From Brevibacillus laterosporus DSM 25 (GTDB lineage Bacteria; Bacillota; Bacilli; Brevibacillales; Brevibacillaceae): a stretch of DNA of 64,000 bases. Shown here in pieces: positions 6,205 through 20,823 of the stretch. Below the pieces are notes generated by a model. That model was not told where the DNA came from. It did not search any database and saw only the letters and a program-made list of their open reading frames with translations. The DNA is taken from the NCBI RefSeq assembly GCF_002706795.1, contig NZ_CP017705.1, positions 4,005,501 through 4,069,500 of the forward strand, in the 5' to 3' direction. How positions within the stretch are numbered: position 1 is the stretch's first letter; each line of letters opens with the position of its first letter. The position numbers and the translations under genes were made by a program.

Positions 6205-7530
6205 GTGATACGAAATCACAAAAGAAAATGGATTGGATCTCTGCTCTTACTCTTGACTGCGTTCATTGTTACTTCAACCCCCTTTCATGATGTAACCTCT
6301 TTACCCAAAGAACTACGGTTATTTGAAGGTTCCCTTAGCCAATTGAAGCTTTCCGTACCTGTTATGGGAACGCTAGTAAACAGTAACCCCGAAATTTTGC
6401 ACGTAAACGGAATAGAAGCCCGTGAAGTACACGTCGATTTTAGCCAACCATTGCAAGTAGCACCCAAAAAAGTAGGGCAAGCTCGTCTGCAATGGCGAGT
6501 TGGCAGCCTTCCCATTAAAGAAGTTAAAGTTAATGTGCTCCCCGATCTGAAAGTCATACCTGGAGGTCAATCTATAGGTGTTAAACTACAGACTGCTGGC
6601 GTTCTGGTAGTTGGGCATCATTTGGTTGACACAGGTAAAGAAAAAGTTTCACCTGGTGAAAGCTCTGGCATTCATGTTGGAGATATGATTGTCAAAATGA
6701 ATGATCTGTACATTAATGACATGAGTGAGGTAAAAAAGATTGTAAATGAAGCTGGTGCAAAAAATCAATCCATTCAACTCATGGTTGTACGCGGAAAAGA
6801 AAAGATCGTTTTGACACTTAAACCAGCACAAGACAAGAAAGATAATCAGTATCGTATGGGACTTTATATTCGTGATTCCGCTGCAGGTGTGGGAACGTTA
6901 ACTTTTTATGAGCCAGATTCAAAGGCATACGGAGCCCTTGGTCACGTCATTTCTGATGTAGATACAGGACAGGCTATCGTTGTGGGAGATGGACAAATCG
7001 TGCAGGCTAGTGTTACTTCCATTGAGAAAGGGCAGAGTGGTAATCCAGGTGAGAAATTCGCCCGCTTTTACAATGAAAATGAAGTGTTAGGCAACATTTC
7101 TAAAAACACCCCGTTTGGCATTTTCGGAAAAATGTACGATAAACCCAAAAGAGCAAAACAAAATGAACCATTGCCGGTAGCATTAGCTGAGCAGGTAAAA
7201 GAAGGTCCAGCTAAAATTTTAACAGTCGTGAATGGACAAGAGGTAGAAGAGTTTGAGATTGAGATTGTCAACGTTGTAAAACAGCATTTTCCTGCAACTA
7301 AAGGGATGATCATTAAGGTTAATGATAAGCGATTACTAGAAAAAACAGGTGGCATTGTACAAGGTATGAGCGGTAGCCCTATTATTCAAGATGGTAAAGT
7401 GGTTGGAGCAGTTACACATGTATTCGTCAATGATCCTACTTCTGGCTATGGTTGTTTTATTGAATGGATGCTACAGGATGCAGGACTGACGATAAAGCAG
7501 CAACAACCTGTGGGTCTCAAGGCGAGCTAA
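6205..7530 (+). CDS. spoIVB: SpoIVB serine peptidase (S55), sporulation
   Basis: 441 residues, GTG start with GGAG about 10 bases upstream. A single N-terminal membrane helix (IGSLLLLLTAFIVTSTP) directs the protein to the forespore intermembrane space, where the family cleaves SpoIVFA to trigger pro-sigma-K processing. A PDZ domain spans about 120-205 and the S55 catalytic serine motif GMSGSP lies at 387-392. Expression is expected from a sigma-G promoter, which I did not locate confidently. Directly precedes spo0A as in other Bacillales. Confidence 0.95.
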   Translation: MIRNHKRKWIGSLLLLLTAFIVTSTPFHDVTSLPKELRLFEGSLSQLKLSVPVMGTLVNSNPEILHVNGIEAREVHVDFSQPLQVAPKKVGQARLQWRVGSLPIKEVKVNVLPDLKVIPGGQSIGVKLQTAGVLVVGHHLVDTGKEKVSPGESSGIHVGDMIVKMNDLYINDMSEVKKIVNEAGAKNQSIQLMVVRGKEKIVLTLKPAQDKKDNQYRMGLYIRDSAAGVGTLTFYEPDSKAYGALGHVISDVDTGQAIVVGDGQIVQASVTSIEKGQSGNPGEKFARFYNENEVLGNISKNTPFGIFGKMYDKPKRAKQNEPLPVALAEQVKEGPAKILTVVNGQEVEEFEIEIVNVVKQHFPATKGMIIKVNDKRLLEKTGGIVQGMSGSPIIQDGKVVGAVTHVFVNDPTSGYGCFIEWMLQDAGLTIKQQQPVGLKAS

Positions 7531-7727: not shown

Positions 7728-7818
7728 TACCATAAGGAATCAAGAGAAACGTACTTCTTCACAGGAAAGAAGTGTTGGATCATGCTCTGTGACCGAATGC
7801 GTTAAGGAGGAACGGAAT

Positions 7819-8601
7819 TTGAGTAAGATAAGCGTGGTATTAGCTGATGACAATCGTGAGTTTGTAGGTCTTCTTGAAGAGTATATTAACACTCAGAGTG
7901 ATATGAACGTAAGTGGGGTCGCTTACAACGGAAATGATGTATTAAAGATCGTCCAAGAGCGCGTTCCAGATATTATCATTTTGGACATTATTATGCCTCA
8001 TCTGGATGGCTTGGCTGTATTAGAGCAAATTCAAGCGATGCGACTAACACCTCAACCCAAAATCATTATGCTGACAGTATTTGGCCAAGAAGAGATCACA
8101 AAGCGCGCGGTAGAACTTGGGGCATCTTACTATATATTAAAGCCTTTTGACATGGACATTCTTGCACAGCGAATTCGCCAAATGATCGGTAGCAAGACCT
8201 CTTTTATCCCAGTGATGAAAACCTCTTCTATGATGCAAAATAAGGGACGTAATTTAGATGCTAGTATAACCAGCATCATCCATGAGATAGGAGTACCGGC
8301 TCATATTAAAGGCTATTTATATTTACGAGAAGCTATTACCATGGTCTATAACGATGTCGAGCTATTGGGTTCTATCACAAAGGTGCTATATCCGGATATT
8401 GCTAAAAAGTTTAATACAACAGCCAGTCGTGTGGAACGTGCAATCCGTCATGCCATTGAAGTGGCTTGGTCGCGAGGTAATTTGGATTCCATTTCTAGCT
8501 TGTTTGGCTATACGGTTTCAAATACCAAGGCAAAACCTACGAATAGTGAGTTTATTGCGATGGTTGCAGACAAGCTGCGGATTGAGCATAAGGTGTCTTG
8601 A
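7819..8601 (+). CDS. spo0A: Sporulation master response regulator Spo0A
   Basis: 260 residues from a TTG start with AAGGAGGAAC seven bases upstream; the in-frame GTG at 7789 lacks a ribosome site. The receiver domain has the acidic pair D10/D11, the phosphoacceptor Asp56 in [10 protein letters not shown] and a conserved Lys in LKPFD. The C-terminal effector domain (from [15 protein letters not shown] onward, with [15 protein letters not shown] as recognition region) is nearly identical to Bacillus. It is intact, so the adjacent prophage has not broken it. Confidence 0.98.
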
Positions 8602-8891
8602 TGTCTATACCTACGCTGTTCTCACGTTAAGCTAGGCGTCCTGTTCCCGTAAATTTAAGCGGAAATTTGGCGGAGATTCCGATAAACTTTTTTGTTACGA
8701 TATCTAATGAAGATAGCGTAAACACCTTTCGCAAAGGACCATAATTTATCGGACGTGTCGTTGTTTCATAGTGTAACCCAAATGTATATCGCGAGGCAAT
8801 ACGCTAGTCCTTCGGGGCTGGCGTATTTATGTTCATAAGTTCGCAAATTATTAGAAAGGGAATCCTTTCCCTCTATCGAAAACATATCGGT
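8602..8891. other. Gene-free junction between spo0A and prophage; candidate attachment region
   Basis: About 290 bp without a convincing gene. It contains a perfect 9-bp inverted repeat, TCCGATAAA at 8678-8686 and TTTATCGGA at 8745-8753, 58 bp apart, which might be recombinase arm sites or chance. The host-to-phage transition falls in this region or slightly to the right. Without the other prophage end the core att sequence cannot be identified. Confidence 0.4.
8798..8830 (+). terminator. Stem-loop downstream of spo0A, probable terminator
   Basis: AATACGC.AG.CC pairs with GG.CT.GCGTATT around a TTCG tetraloop. The T tract is poor (TTTATGTT), so it may be a weak or bidirectional terminator or a structured leader. 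Confidence 0.55.
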
Positions 8892-17741: not shown

Positions 17742-18755
17742 ATGCAGATAGATATTCGGGCCGAGCTCGAACAGTTTCCGTGGACAGCCGCAACGTGGAC
17801 GGGTGACAAGCTACTTGCGGCGAGTCCTTTCCGTTGGGACAGGTCGCCGTCATTCTACGTATGGTTACGGGATAGTAACGACCCACGTAATATAGCAAAG
17901 GCCGGCTACTGGTCGGATTTAGGCGCAAAGGATACGGACTATCAACACGGCGGGATCGTAAAGTTGCTGGCGTTTCTACGGGAAGAAACGGAAGAGGAGA
18001 CGCGGGATTACTTACGGTGGAAATACGGGGAGGGAACAGTTGACCCCGAGGCTCTTACGTTGGACCTGTCGGGGAGTTTACGTATGAGCCAGGCGCGAAC
18101 ACAGACGTTAGATTCCGACTTTCATAAGCAGTACACAGACCGTGACCATCCGTATCTATCTTCGCGAGGTATTACCGAAGAGGTACAACGTCTATTCCAG
18201 ACGGGCTATGATCCGAGGACTAATGCGATTACTATACCTTGGTTTAACGCAGAGGGAACGTTAGGCAACGTTAAATACCGAAAAGTTAATGAGAAGACGT
18301 TTTGGTACGCCAAGGGAGGGCGGCCTATACGTGAAATGGTGTACGGGTTGGACATTGTTTATAGGCAGAGAATTACAGGGGCGGTACTCGTGGAATCGGA
18401 GATTGACGCGATGTATCTGTGGAGTGCGGGAGTGCCGGCGGTGGCGTTAGGTGGCTCGGTGCTTAGCGAAGAGAAGGCGGAGGCTTTGCGGAAGAGCCCG
18501 ATAGAGATTATCGGGGTGATGGCGGACCACGACAAGGCGGGTCAGAAGATGAAACGGGCGGTCGTCGGAGGGCTGTCGGGATATATGACGGTTAACGTCG
18601 TAGGGTATCCGATCCGATACAAGGACCCGAACGAAATAAAAAATAAGGCGGAATTAAATCAAGTGTTAAAAAATGTGTTTACAGATAAAAAAAGTTTTAT
18701 TAAGATAAATTTTTGTAAAGGTAATAATTATTTTTTACGAAATATGACTTCATAA
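17742..18755 (+). CDS. DNA primase, TOPRIM domain
   Basis: 337 residues, ATG behind AAGGAGGGCG. The TOPRIM core shows the catalytic Glu in VESEIDAMYLW near residue 222 and the DxD in MADHDKAGQKM near residue 263. No cysteine zinc ribbon is visible at the N-terminus, unlike DnaG. Codon use turns abruptly AT-rich from about 18640 and the last 40 residues (FTDKKSFIKINFCKG) look unlike the rest, so the 3' end may have been replaced when the neighbouring module was acquired. Its end overlaps the leftward HTH gene. Confidence 0.85.
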   Translation: MQIDIRAELEQFPWTAATWTGDKLLAASPFRWDRSPSFYVWLRDSNDPRNIAKAGYWSDLGAKDTDYQHGGIVKLLAFLREETEEETRDYLRWKYGEGTVDPEALTLDLSGSLRMSQARTQTLDSDFHKQYTDRDHPYLSSRGITEEVQRLFQTGYDPRTNAITIPWFNAEGTLGNVKYRKVNEKTFWYAKGGRPIREMVYGLDIVYRQRITGAVLVESEIDAMYLWSAGVPAVALGGSVLSEEKAEALRKSPIEIIGVMADHDKAGQKMKRAVVGGLSGYMTVNVVGYPIRYKDPNEIKNKAELNQVLKNVFTDKKSFIKINFCKGNNYFLRNMTS

Positions 18756-19008: not shown

Positions 19009-19068
19009 CACATAGTGTATTTTAATGACACATAATGTATTGACACGTTACATTATGTGTCGTATACT
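19009..19068. promoter_or_regulatory. Divergent control region: sigma-A promoter for the receptor gene with three operator boxes
   Basis: A textbook promoter reads TTGACA at 19040-19045, 17-bp gap, TATACT at 19063-19068, facing right. Three near-palindromic boxes, ACATAGTGT, ACATAATGT and ACATTATGT, centre at 19014, 19034 and 19054, exactly 20 bp apart; the last two extend to a perfect 13-bp inverted repeat (GACACATAATGTA and TACATTATGTGTC). The boxes flank the -35 and fill the spacer, so a bound protein would block transcription. Confidence 0.85.
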
Positions 19069-19110: not shown

Positions 19111-20436
19111 ATGATCGACATCAGTGACTTGACTTATTATCGTCTTAAATTAAGGGAAGAAATACTAATCCAAATGCATTCAAATAATCTTAGTCAACGA
19201 GACCTAGCTAAATTGATGTATATCTCTCCCCAATCGCTTTCTTATATTATGAAGAACAAGCAAGCGCTTACGCTGAACCAGATAGATTTACTGACACGCG
19301 TATTCAGGTTAGACGACGATTTTTTTTATGGAATGGTTTATGGAGAGCTTTTCAAGGACTCGTCCAAAGTTTCTCTTCCCAAAGTAACAGACTTTATTAG
19401 GGCATGCTTTCACTGCAAACAAGGTGTCAATCATTGTGGTAAAGTAGTCGAGTTATTCTTGGAAACAATAGATATAAAGGATATGTCCACCGCCTTAACT
19501 TTTGCAGAGACACTTTTCGGCTACGGCTTTCTAGCAGAGGCCGCGTCTGTATATTACGCAATTACAAATATTGAAAAGAAAATATCAGAAAGATTTGCGG
19601 TTTGCTGCCATCGAATTTTCTTGATCGAACGCGACAGGGATATGCGTAAGAAAGGCGTAGAAGCATTACATAAATTACGAGCAGTATTGAACGATCTACC
19701 CACAGAATATCCCGCACAAAAAAATGGTGTTGCAGAAACAGTAAATTTACAATTAGATGGGTACTATCGCGTCGTTACTTGGTATAATGTTACCAAAGAG
19801 TGGGAGGAACTTTCTGCTGTAGCAGATGCCTACTACAAAGAGGCAAAGGACGCTAAAGATACTAAGCATCTAGGGGAGTCGCTTCTCTATCAAGCCGCAA
19901 GTTTAATAGGACTGGGAGAACTCAGAAAAGCGGCAGAACTCCTCCGAGAATGTCGCGGACTAGACGATCATTACCGTTGGGCGGCGTTATCAAATGAGAA
20001 GTTAATTGAAGTAATGGAAGGCAAGATCGAAGCAGTAAATGAGTTTATCCGACTGGTGGTAGACAAGAATTGTGAACATGAGATTATTACGGTAGCCCCA
20101 TACGCCATGGAGATACTACTTTCAAAAGGGCAGTTAGAAAGAATAGGTGTGTTTTTAGAGAAATATAACGCGATTTTTGAGTCTGTTGCATTAAAGAAGG
20201 ATAAGTATAATAAGAGTCAATTCTATAATTTTCAAGTTGTTAGATTACAGTACTTTCTAGCTGTGAAACAGTATAATGAAGCATTCAACGACGTTCTTGA
20301 AGTCGTTAAAACAGCACTAGAGTTCGGAGATATTTCAATATACCAAAAAATGTCCGCGATCCTCTTCGAGCACAAGGCTATTTTAGGAGAGGACGTTGAA
20401 CATAGATATTTAAATATTTTAAAAGGGGCGAATTAG
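19111..20436 (+). CDS. HTH + TPR peptide-receptor regulator (RRNPP type, arbitrium AimR-like)
   Basis: 441 residues, ATG behind CAGGTGATAACC. An XRE-type helix-turn-helix occupies about 13-55 (NLSQRDLAKLMYISPQSLSY) and the rest is all-helical repeat sequence typical of TPRs (for example ALTFAETLFGYGFLAEAASV, LYQAASLIGLGELRKAAELL). This architecture is that of peptide-sensing regulators PlcR, Rgg, NprR and phage AimR. A secreted pre-peptide starts one base after its stop, and it sits in the prophage lysogeny region, so it is probably the receptor of a phage communication pair. Direct sequence similarity to SPbeta AimR was not evident to me. Confidence 0.8.
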   Translation: MIDISDLTYYRLKLREEILIQMHSNNLSQRDLAKLMYISPQSLSYIMKNKQALTLNQIDLLTRVFRLDDDFFYGMVYGELFKDSSKVSLPKVTDFIRACFHCKQGVNHCGKVVELFLETIDIKDMSTALTFAETLFGYGFLAEAASVYYAITNIEKKISERFAVCCHRIFLIERDRDMRKKGVEALHKLRAVLNDLPTEYPAQKNGVAETVNLQLDGYYRVVTWYNVTKEWEELSAVADAYYKEAKDAKDTKHLGESLLYQAASLIGLGELRKAAELLRECRGLDDHYRWAALSNEKLIEVMEGKIEAVNEFIRLVVDKNCEHEIITVAPYAMEILLSKGQLERIGVFLEKYNAIFESVALKKDKYNKSQFYNFQVVRLQYFLAVKQYNEAFNDVLEVVKTALEFGDISIYQKMSAILFEHKAILGEDVEHRYLNILKGAN

Positions 20437-20437
20437 A

Positions 20438-20581
20438 ATGAAAGCATTTATGGTTACATTAGTAGCAATTGTCTCCGTTTTATTTACTCAACCAGCACAG
20501 GCAGAACAGTTTACTTATGATAATGGATCAGAAGAGAGCGTGGCATATGTAACTTCCAGAATAGTTGGGGGAGGTTGGTAG
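20438..20581 (+). CDS. Secreted signalling pre-peptide, cognate of the upstream receptor
   Basis: 47 residues, ATG 20438 one base after the receptor stop, behind AAAAGGGGCG. Residues 1-22 form a signal peptide (Lys, hydrophobic core FMVTLVAIVSVLF, cleavage after AQA). The remaining 25 residues start EQFTYDNG and end SRIVGGGW, consistent with maturation of a short C-terminal peptide as for Phr and AimP. The mature form cannot be predicted surely. A strong terminator follows 17 bp later, making a two-gene operon. Confidence 0.8.
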   Translation: MKAFMVTLVAIVSVLFTQPAQAEQFTYDNGSEESVAYVTSRIVGGGW

Positions 20582-20597
20582 TACTACTAACCTATTT

Positions 20598-20627
20598 AAG
20601 ACACCTGTAATGGGTGTCTTTTTTTTT
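20598..20627 (+). terminator. Terminator of the receptor/pre-peptide operon
   Basis: AAGACACC pairs with GGTGTCTT around TGTAATG, followed by nine T. In arbitrium phages a terminator after aimP is also part of the lysogeny switch; here that is analogy only. Confidence 0.93.
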
Positions 20628-20823
20628 GTGTGTTTTTTCTTTTATTTCGCCTAAATTCGACAAAATGCGAGAAAAATCAAAATTATAAACCTAGTAGTAA
20701 AATTACCCTTTACCGGGTATACAATAAAAACAAGAAAGCGATATATAGCAGAAAGGGAGGTAACTAATAAAAAAAATATTACCGAAGTATCGGTACAAAA
20801 GTTGGTGAGAGCGGAAGTCTCCG
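20628..20823. other. Intergenic, AT-rich, with an orphan ribosome site
   Basis: About 195 bp. Holds TACCC/GGGTA repeats next to TATACAAT (near 20713-20735) that could be a promoter, and GAAAGGGAGGTAAC (20751-20764) not followed by a usable start codon. A hairpin AGCGGA/TCCGCT at about 20809-20824 may terminate the leftward repressor gene. Confidence 0.35.

Follow-up and report, generated by a model that had tools for sequence, protein, structure and literature searches.

Arbitrium is known from Bacillus phages, and whether other phage groups have separately recruited RRNPP receptors for the same decision is an open question addressed here. In the AimR-AimP pairs of arbitrium (SPbeta, phi3T, and the Waukesha92 and Wbeta groups), a receptor and its peptide are phage-encoded and lie near regulators. 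Without peptide, both AimR and AloR are reported to switch on a promoter beside them, which the peptide shuts off (PMC11945551, PMC7425212). The AloR-AloP pair of Paenibacillus polymyxa is a receptor-then-peptide operon, in which the receptor combines an HTH with degenerate TPRs, the propeptide has a signal sequence, and the signal is short, Gly-rich and C-terminal (AloP13, SHGRGG; PMC7425212). Cluster 8, or subfamily 08, likewise has an HTH with TPRs, a short Gly-containing signal, and a range covering Paenibacillaceae chromosomes, plasmids and phages (PMC10075063, PMC12700828). These traits are shared by the receptor-peptide pair described below, and the range is shared by its family. In Moi 2025 (PMC12700828), AloR, subfamily 08 and AimR were placed in one structural clan, with a DPG motif in the peptides of subfamily 08 and AimR.

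The window, i.e., the whole 64,000-nucleotide stretch analyzed (C1:4005501-4069500), belongs to the 5.40-Mb, single-contig genome of Brevibacillus laterosporus DSM 25. The first-pass annotation, made from the sequence alone, had proposed a receptor with an XRE HTH and TPR-like helices, followed after one base by a 47-residue protein with a signal peptide ending AQA and a tail ending SRIVGGGW. This layout was exact, as the receptor stop and the pre-peptide start are separated by the single base 20437 (Table 1), and both peptide endings matched the translation. The signal sequence, MKAFMVTLVAIVSVLFTQPAQA, was read by eye rather than by a signal-peptide program, and the exported tail, EQFTYDNGSEESVAYVTSRIVGGGW, comprises 25 residues.

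Table 1. Features of the receptor-peptide locus and the surrounding prophage (positions in the window frame).
Feature	Position	Strand	Description
SpoIVB	6205-7530		Host gene left of the prophage
Spo0A	7789-8601		418 bits vs cut-off 200; with SpoIVB, the last clear host genes
attL	8527..8605	+	Last 24 codons of spo0A, stop and 4 bases; 79 bp, repeated at attR without mismatch
Divergent small HTH protein, 72 aa	18728..18946	-	Weak HTH matches; likely owner of the operators
Three operator-like sites CACATAATGTR	19009..19061	.	20 bp apart; overlie the -35 box
Receptor-peptide operon promoter	19040..19068	+	TTGACA-17-TATACT; 11/12 matches
Receptor, 441 aa	19111..20436	+	ATG 19111, TAG 20434-20436; XRE-type HTH, C-terminal TPR-like superhelix
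Receptor HTH	about 19183-19320	+	Residues 25-70; Pfam HTH_3 E 6e-6, 26.6 bits vs cut-off 23
Pre-peptide, 47 aa	20438..20581	+	ATG 20438, TAG 20579-20581; signal sequence residues 1-22, ending AQA
Predicted mature-signal core IVGGGW	20561..20578	+	Residues 42-47; inferred from the repeated xxGxGW units of relatives
Operon intrinsic terminator	20598..20627	+	
Terminator-to-repressor intergenic stretch	20640..20790	+	Candidate target promoter, aimX-like position
TTTGTCGAA with perfect Spo0A-box core	20656..20664	-	74 bases after the pre-peptide stop
Convergent XRE repressor-like protein, 85 aa	20824..21081	-	HTH_3 E 3e-11
HTH-like protein, 214 aa	21212..21856	+	Weak HTH matches; first of the rightward genes
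attR	69615-69693		Region G000:C1:4075112-4075193 of the source genome; ~100 bases past the integrase gene

The HTH expected of DNA-binding RRNPP(A) members was detected in the receptor by Pfam HTH_3, and an adjacent gene for a Sec-exported propeptide, which also characterizes RRNPP(A) systems, was present at the locus. The proposed helices were borne out by the AlphaFold2 model, which was built from a 16-row alignment (pLDDT 90.4, pTM 0.82) and showed an N-terminal HTH and an all-helical repeat array with one beta-hairpin (200-211). As modeled, the receptor has the TPR-superhelix fold of RRNPP(A) receptors, with a putative peptide pocket. NprR bound to NprX headed the VIA-align rows of the PDB matches listed, at Z 17.1 and with an rmsd of 8.1 over 291 aligned residues, and RappLS20 (Z 16.1), RapI (16.0) and phi3T Rap (15.6) were also listed. 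TPR proteins of other function (LGN, KLC and MamA) scored as high as the RRNPP receptors, and therefore the fold alone proves little; the query TM-scores were 0.15-0.43 among the 50 PDB rows listed. No AimR chain was among the structure matches listed, which says nothing either way about an AimR fold. In the family libraries, the receptor gave almost solely HTH matches and the pre-peptide nothing significant. The PDB sequence search with the receptor gave HTH proteins and, by profile, LapB TPRs, with no RRNPP receptor among the matches listed. When the receptor was compared with 50,697 phage records by tblastn, one weak record, SecTim467, was obtained, and blastn against phage records gave no match.

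The pre-peptide ORF is not due to chance. Five viral contigs (L040-L044) carried the pair, with a receptor identity of 91-100% and an intact pre-peptide in each; L040 was 100% identical and may be the same strain. On comparing the window with L041-L044, two of the 25 exported codons had synonymous differences and none had amino-acid differences. In the whole pre-peptide, four codons differed only synonymously and one amino-acid difference lay in the signal part, and the 441 codons of the receptor included 79 with synonymous and 44 with amino-acid differences.

A small ORF with a signal sequence, defined by a start within 150 bases of the stop, a length of 24-110 aa and a basic then hydrophobic start, was found at the stop of 49 of 59 receptors (window included) vs 26 of 262 control ORFs, the controls being open frames of at least 150 aa in the same loci, unvetted as genes. 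The 59 rows are those of the 64-row tree described below minus five AimRs, and contain both the window and its near-identical relative L041. At most 30 matches per profile search (genus; family) were taken as loci for the peptide scan. Six loci from the family search, two with a visible peptide (L096 and L104) and four without (L097, L100, L101 and L103), were left out of the tree and the count, as were the partial or frame-broken L049, L054 and L058, each with a GxGW-type propeptide, and near-duplicates. For L050, L062, L094 and L098, the ORFs scored by the rule were chance ones chosen as the shortest, and other ORFs are the likelier propeptides. No peptide ORF was found by the rule in 10 of the 59, namely three Bacillaceae loci (L056, L057 and L060), SecTim gp69, and L013, L017, L020, L024, L027 and L034 of one genome (G002). 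In the chromosomal L034, the open frame ends in a signal-sequence-like stretch closing DFGIGY, as if the receptor and propeptide were fused in frame, and an annotated 45-aa CDS overlaps the end of SecTim gp69. The first-pass annotation had held that a receptor phylogeny without a conserved peptide-coding neighbor would speak against the pair, and the opposite was observed.

Single-sequence searching of the source genome yielded four further receptors of 25-28% identity, and a small ORF with a signal sequence was present at the stop of every one. In three of these four pairs the peptide ends GEGW; the paralogue L005 ends DNGARPK, outside the xxGxGW form. Profile searching added AloR-type pairs (L031 and L036) in the same genome. 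Relatives of the receptor occurred in 4 of 5 genomes in the genus and in 26 of 39 in the family at E<=1e-30. Moreover, the peptide type, labeled after the peptides had been seen, tracked the receptor tree, with 9 changes over 54 labeled rows vs at least 25 in 300 shuffles. Together with the AloR homology described below, the recurrent ORFs and the paralogous pairs agreed with the RRNPP-type arrangement proposed at first pass, and we are confident that the window pair is a real RRNPP-type peptide-receptor pair. As a separate observation, the chromosomal GEGW pairs L006, L007 and L008 are followed by a conserved ORF of ~61 aa and then by a gene whose product starts like a signal sequence; these genes are likely a host regulon.

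To place the receptor, a maximum-likelihood tree of 64 receptors was used, in which SPbeta AimR (5 rows, 100/100), the SecTim gp71 type (7 rows, 100/99) and AloR (18 rows, 100/100) formed clades. The window receptor and most xxGxGW rows formed a separate group (19 rows, 93/96; 18 rows, 88/54). The receptors of phage Emery and of the EDGPGW plasmid lay outside this group, with L090 (98/93), and the WLGTGW receptor was likewise outside the 19. The place of the window receptor in the xxGxGW clade is only moderately supported, and its exact position is not firm because its branch is long (1.82). When the 16-row alignment of the window clade was compared using hhalign, 100% was obtained for AloR (E 3e-49, 411 columns), 99.2% for the gp71 type (E 2e-19) and 0.5% for SPbeta AimR. 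With HTH-type AimRs added, the window clade reached 93-95% against AimR (E about 1e-7), and the window with L041 alone 37-54%, over the HTH. The receptor had no match at E<=1 to NCBIfam AimR NF038310 (cut-off 70 bits) and none to PHROG 1728, which holds phi3T AimR. By sequence, the receptor is thus a relative of AloR, and any relationship to AimR is remote at most. The unlikeness to SPbeta AimR noted at first pass was therefore confirmed. The class that it had considered possibly distinct is not wholly new, since the clade of the window receptor is a full-length homologue of AloR.

Unlike AloR-AloP, the window receptor falls outside the AloR clade, its peptide ends GxGW instead of HGxGG, no spo0E-like gene was found after the pair, and the pair lies in a prophage regulatory region. 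The five SPbeta-group AimP controls end RGA, whereas the window peptide ends IVGGGW, and the lack of an RGA ending had been recognized correctly. In contrast, the implied foreignness of this ending to arbitrium was not upheld: in the review PMC11945551, the Waukesha92-like arbitrium peptide MMSEPGGGGW shares the GGGW ending, the comparison being one of peptide endings. A search of phages with a doubled arbitrium peptide gave no match.

Identity of the window family with the published cluster 8 was considered and rejected. Bernard 2023 (PMC10075063) reports that a plasmid of LMG 15441 carries two systems, one of AloR and one of cluster 8. Plasmid pBRLA33 of this strain encodes an AloR paired with EHGVGG and a receptor of the gp71 type paired with DYDPGY, and the window receptor gave no match to it at E<=1e-3. 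Because of this agreement with the published count, cluster 8 most likely corresponds to the SecTim467 gp71 type with DPG-type peptides, not to the window type. The window receptor lies outside the gp71-type clade and lacks a DPG-type peptide, and the profile of the window and L041 gave 2.8% against this clade. Other clusters of the same catalogue may hold the window clade. As relatives keep the receptor-peptide arrangement, the prophage pair is very probably a phage communication system from a receptor branch other than that of known arbitrium. In the open-access literature searched, 'Brevibacillus phage' and 'arbitrium' occurred together only in a taxonomy sentence and a reference.

As the relatives carry their signal in repeats, the form of the mature peptide could be proposed. 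The Emery propeptide has HGGIGW twice and the Brevibacillus plasmid propeptide EDGPGW twice, and NVGEHG (L021), DIGERG (L090) and SSGDRG (L087) are also each present twice. In the Paenibacillus alvei group (L049, L050, L051, L052, L053, L055 and L058), 3-6 IGxGW-type units occur, which is the form of a polymeric pheromone precursor; multi-copy propeptides are reported among RRNPPA systems (PMC9765709). Single-copy members end SFGEGW, GYGEGW, SVGEGW, DPGDGW and WLGTGW. Since the unit recurs in repeats and the single-copy members end alike, a hexapeptide of the form xxGxGW, possibly extended by a residue or two, is by analogy the likeliest mature signal; here it would read IVGGGW. The window propeptide has no internal repeat, and in L052, L053 and L055 the repeats end before the C-terminus with further residues after them; the mature end in the window is thus assigned by analogy, and its true N-end may give SRIVGGGW or RIVGGGW. 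The xxGxGW code, read off the repeated propeptides, allows such pairs to be recognized in other genomes.

The pair lies in a prophage. To the right of spo0A, the window encodes a DnaC-like loader, a DnaB-like helicase, primase, DNA polymerase, ribonucleotide reductase, terminase, portal and tape measure, and genes for a glucosaminidase and a phage integrase follow beyond its right end. The perfect 79-bp repeat at attL and attR re-creates the last codons of spo0A. As this repeat of the spo0A end recurs beside the integrase gene, the 3' end of spo0A is the insertion site of a ~61-kb prophage. The left boundary of the prophage is approximate, since ~230 bases following attL resemble the sequence preceding the right flank in genome G004. 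In the sister genome G003, the right-flank host gene follows spo0A at a distance of ~0.9 kb, the spacing expected of a prophage-free site. In G001, spo0A is followed by a 91% match to the left end of the prophage; in G004, integrase-like sequence (72%) precedes another copy of the spo0A end. A repeat of the spo0A end was also present ~0.5 kb away in G002. Given these signs of related elements and the repeat in G002, the 3' end of spo0A appears to be used repeatedly for integration. No open-access report found treated spo0A, a prophage, the integration site and Brevibacillus together.

The first-pass annotation had assigned the pair its own promoter, operators and terminator, and all three were found. 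The promoter ranked first of the 17 promoter-like sites that a 3.6-kb stretch contained, where shuffled sequence would give 9.9, and both promoter and terminator were kept in the aligned related phages. The operator region contains a perfect 13-bp inverted repeat (19027-19039/19049-19061). With one mismatch allowed, CACATAATGTR-type sites numbered six in the window vs 1.08 expected, three of them within 51 bp. The operator 13-mer with three mismatches gave 18 matches vs 17 expected, and therefore no regulon could be called beyond the promoter. In L041-L044, the operator sites were CACATAATGTG or close variants. Because these operators and the HTH region of the divergent 72-aa protein both differ from the window there while the predicted recognition helix of the receptor stays the same, the operators at 19.0 kb are probably read by the 72-aa protein and not, as assumed at first pass, by the receptor. 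The intergenic stretch after the terminator is largely conserved to about 20740 in the five aligned phages, and no aimX-like gene was found in the conserved noncoding sequence there. The described lysogeny region was thus recovered as a site inside the prophage beside XRE-type regulators, and control of lysogeny is its presumed role.

For the mechanism, we infer the processing site, import, target, direction of the effect and role in lysogeny. The operon would be transcribed from the 19.04-kb promoter, probably under the control of the small divergent HTH protein. The pre-peptide would leave the cell through Sec; cleavage behind AQA and further trimming would yield a C-terminal peptide of ~6-8 residues with the core IVGGGW, which an oligopeptide permease would import into neighboring cells. 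The peptide would then bind the TPR groove of the receptor and change how the receptor acts on a promoter close by, most probably within the 150 conserved bp that separate the terminator from the convergent repressor. With AimR and AloR as the template, a receptor-on/peptide-off scheme is proposed: with few lysogens near, the receptor would act at 20640-20790, and as the peptide builds up, this action would stop. The signal would report how many neighbors carry the phage and bias lysis vs lysogeny in an arbitrium-like manner, with output through RNA antisense to the repressor as one possibility. In the legend of Fig. 6 of Bernard 2023 (PMC10075063), the order 'QSS - divergently transcribed c1 repressor - operon of codirectional genes' is taken to indicate that the QSS controls the operon. 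Overall, a phage-borne RRNPP-type cell-cell signaling pair working by this mechanism is considered likely, and for control of the lysis-lysogeny decision by the window pair the chances appear about even.

The small ORF could instead encode a secreted or membrane protein with another job, such as a superinfection-exclusion factor, that stands beside an HTH-TPR regulator by chance, as about a tenth of the control ORFs precede a small signal-sequence ORF by the same rule. However, divergent paralogues are also accompanied by such an ORF, whose C-terminal motif is alike in kind and occurs in repeats, and this recurrence fits a processed signal and not a folded protein; this reading is hence very improbable. 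Equally improbable is a domesticated or decaying leftover out of signaling use. Loss of signaling may happen in the receptor family, since 10 of 59 receptors had no detectable peptide ORF, but both genes are intact in the window and the five viral contigs, the exported part differs only synonymously, and the promoter and terminator are conserved.

The main rival is a genuine RRNPP pair whose output is a host function, i.e., sporulation timing or a secreted product, and not lysis-lysogeny. The location of the prophage at spo0A and the Spo0A-box core after the pre-peptide gene both agree with it. The 9-mer TTTGTCGAA at 20656 is the only copy within the prophage part of the window, and it occurs again ~38 bases after the Emery peptide gene. 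TGTCGAA, the core Spo0A box (PMC3485338), was present within 150 bases after the peptide genes in 7 of 40 dereplicated loci; dinucleotide shuffles gave a mean of 0.65, with 0 of 500 reaching 7, and after other ORFs of the same loci it was present in 6 of 210. The motif was tested after being noticed in the window and Emery, and without both the count was 5 of 38. Among 7-mers with at least three G/C after peptide genes, TGTCGAA ranked first, tied with AAAGCAC, which we take to be terminator-derived. These cores lie about 40-120 bases after the peptide genes in several receptor clades. They are not one inherited stretch, because the six other loci are Emery (L110 6441), a plasmid (L065 4558), L021, L083, L087 and the gp71-type L120. 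The GEGW loci and most AloR loci were without a core after the peptide gene. The link between Spo0A box and peptide gene is a correlation, and the cores are candidate sites. A host output would also agree with the reported control of a spo0E-like gene by AloR (PMC7425212) and with the proposal of sporulation hijacking by phage QSSs (PMC10075063), and the three chromosomal GEGW paralogues precede genes for proteins with signal-like starts and not phage regulators. Against it, XRE-type regulators and phage genes surround the pair both in the window and in Emery, and the three nearest window neighbors, at 18728, 20824 and 21212, had no spo0E-like, rap or abrB match in the family libraries. A purely host output is therefore the less probable reading, although a serious one, and arbitrium-like signaling by the phage is preferred.

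Under the preferred phage signaling, a wider reading can be put forward tentatively, namely that a temperate phage integrating at spo0A counts lysogens through a non-AimR, AloR-related receptor and IVGGGW, and combines this count with the sporulation state through the Spo0A box of the output promoter. Phage and host may even hear each other, because IVGGGW shares the xxGxGW form with the host SFGEGW, GYGEGW and SVGEGW. If true, phages would have recruited an arbitrium-type system a second time, separately, and tied it to sporulation, with a possible direct link from phage signaling to Spo0A. Being compact, the Brevibacillus locus lends itself to testing: an isolated phage, Emery, is similar in layout, and the short predicted signal can be synthesized.

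In the gp59-gp64 region of Emery (KC595516), the order is a small XRE gene (-), receptor (+), peptide (+), two small ORFs (-, +), an XRE repressor (-) and a regulator (+). The main gene order is that of the window, with gp62 and gp63 as extra genes before the repressor. The Emery receptor gp60 is homologous to that of the window, yet belongs to another branch and was 17% identical in the structural match; its peptide unit is doubled, whereas IVGGGW is present once. The best viral structure match to the window receptor was S5MC02 (425 aa), taken as gp60 because gp60 is also 425 aa. The Emery pair is not annotated as a signaling system. The same phage (L110 3224-3742 and 4920-6403) carries, besides the pair, the gene gp55, annotated as accessory gene regulator B family, and Emery thus possibly has two peptide-signaling parts. 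In SecTim467 (L063 3049-6484), a gp71 (cluster 8) receptor with DDPGY and an AloR type are present, with a putative Spo0E gene between them.
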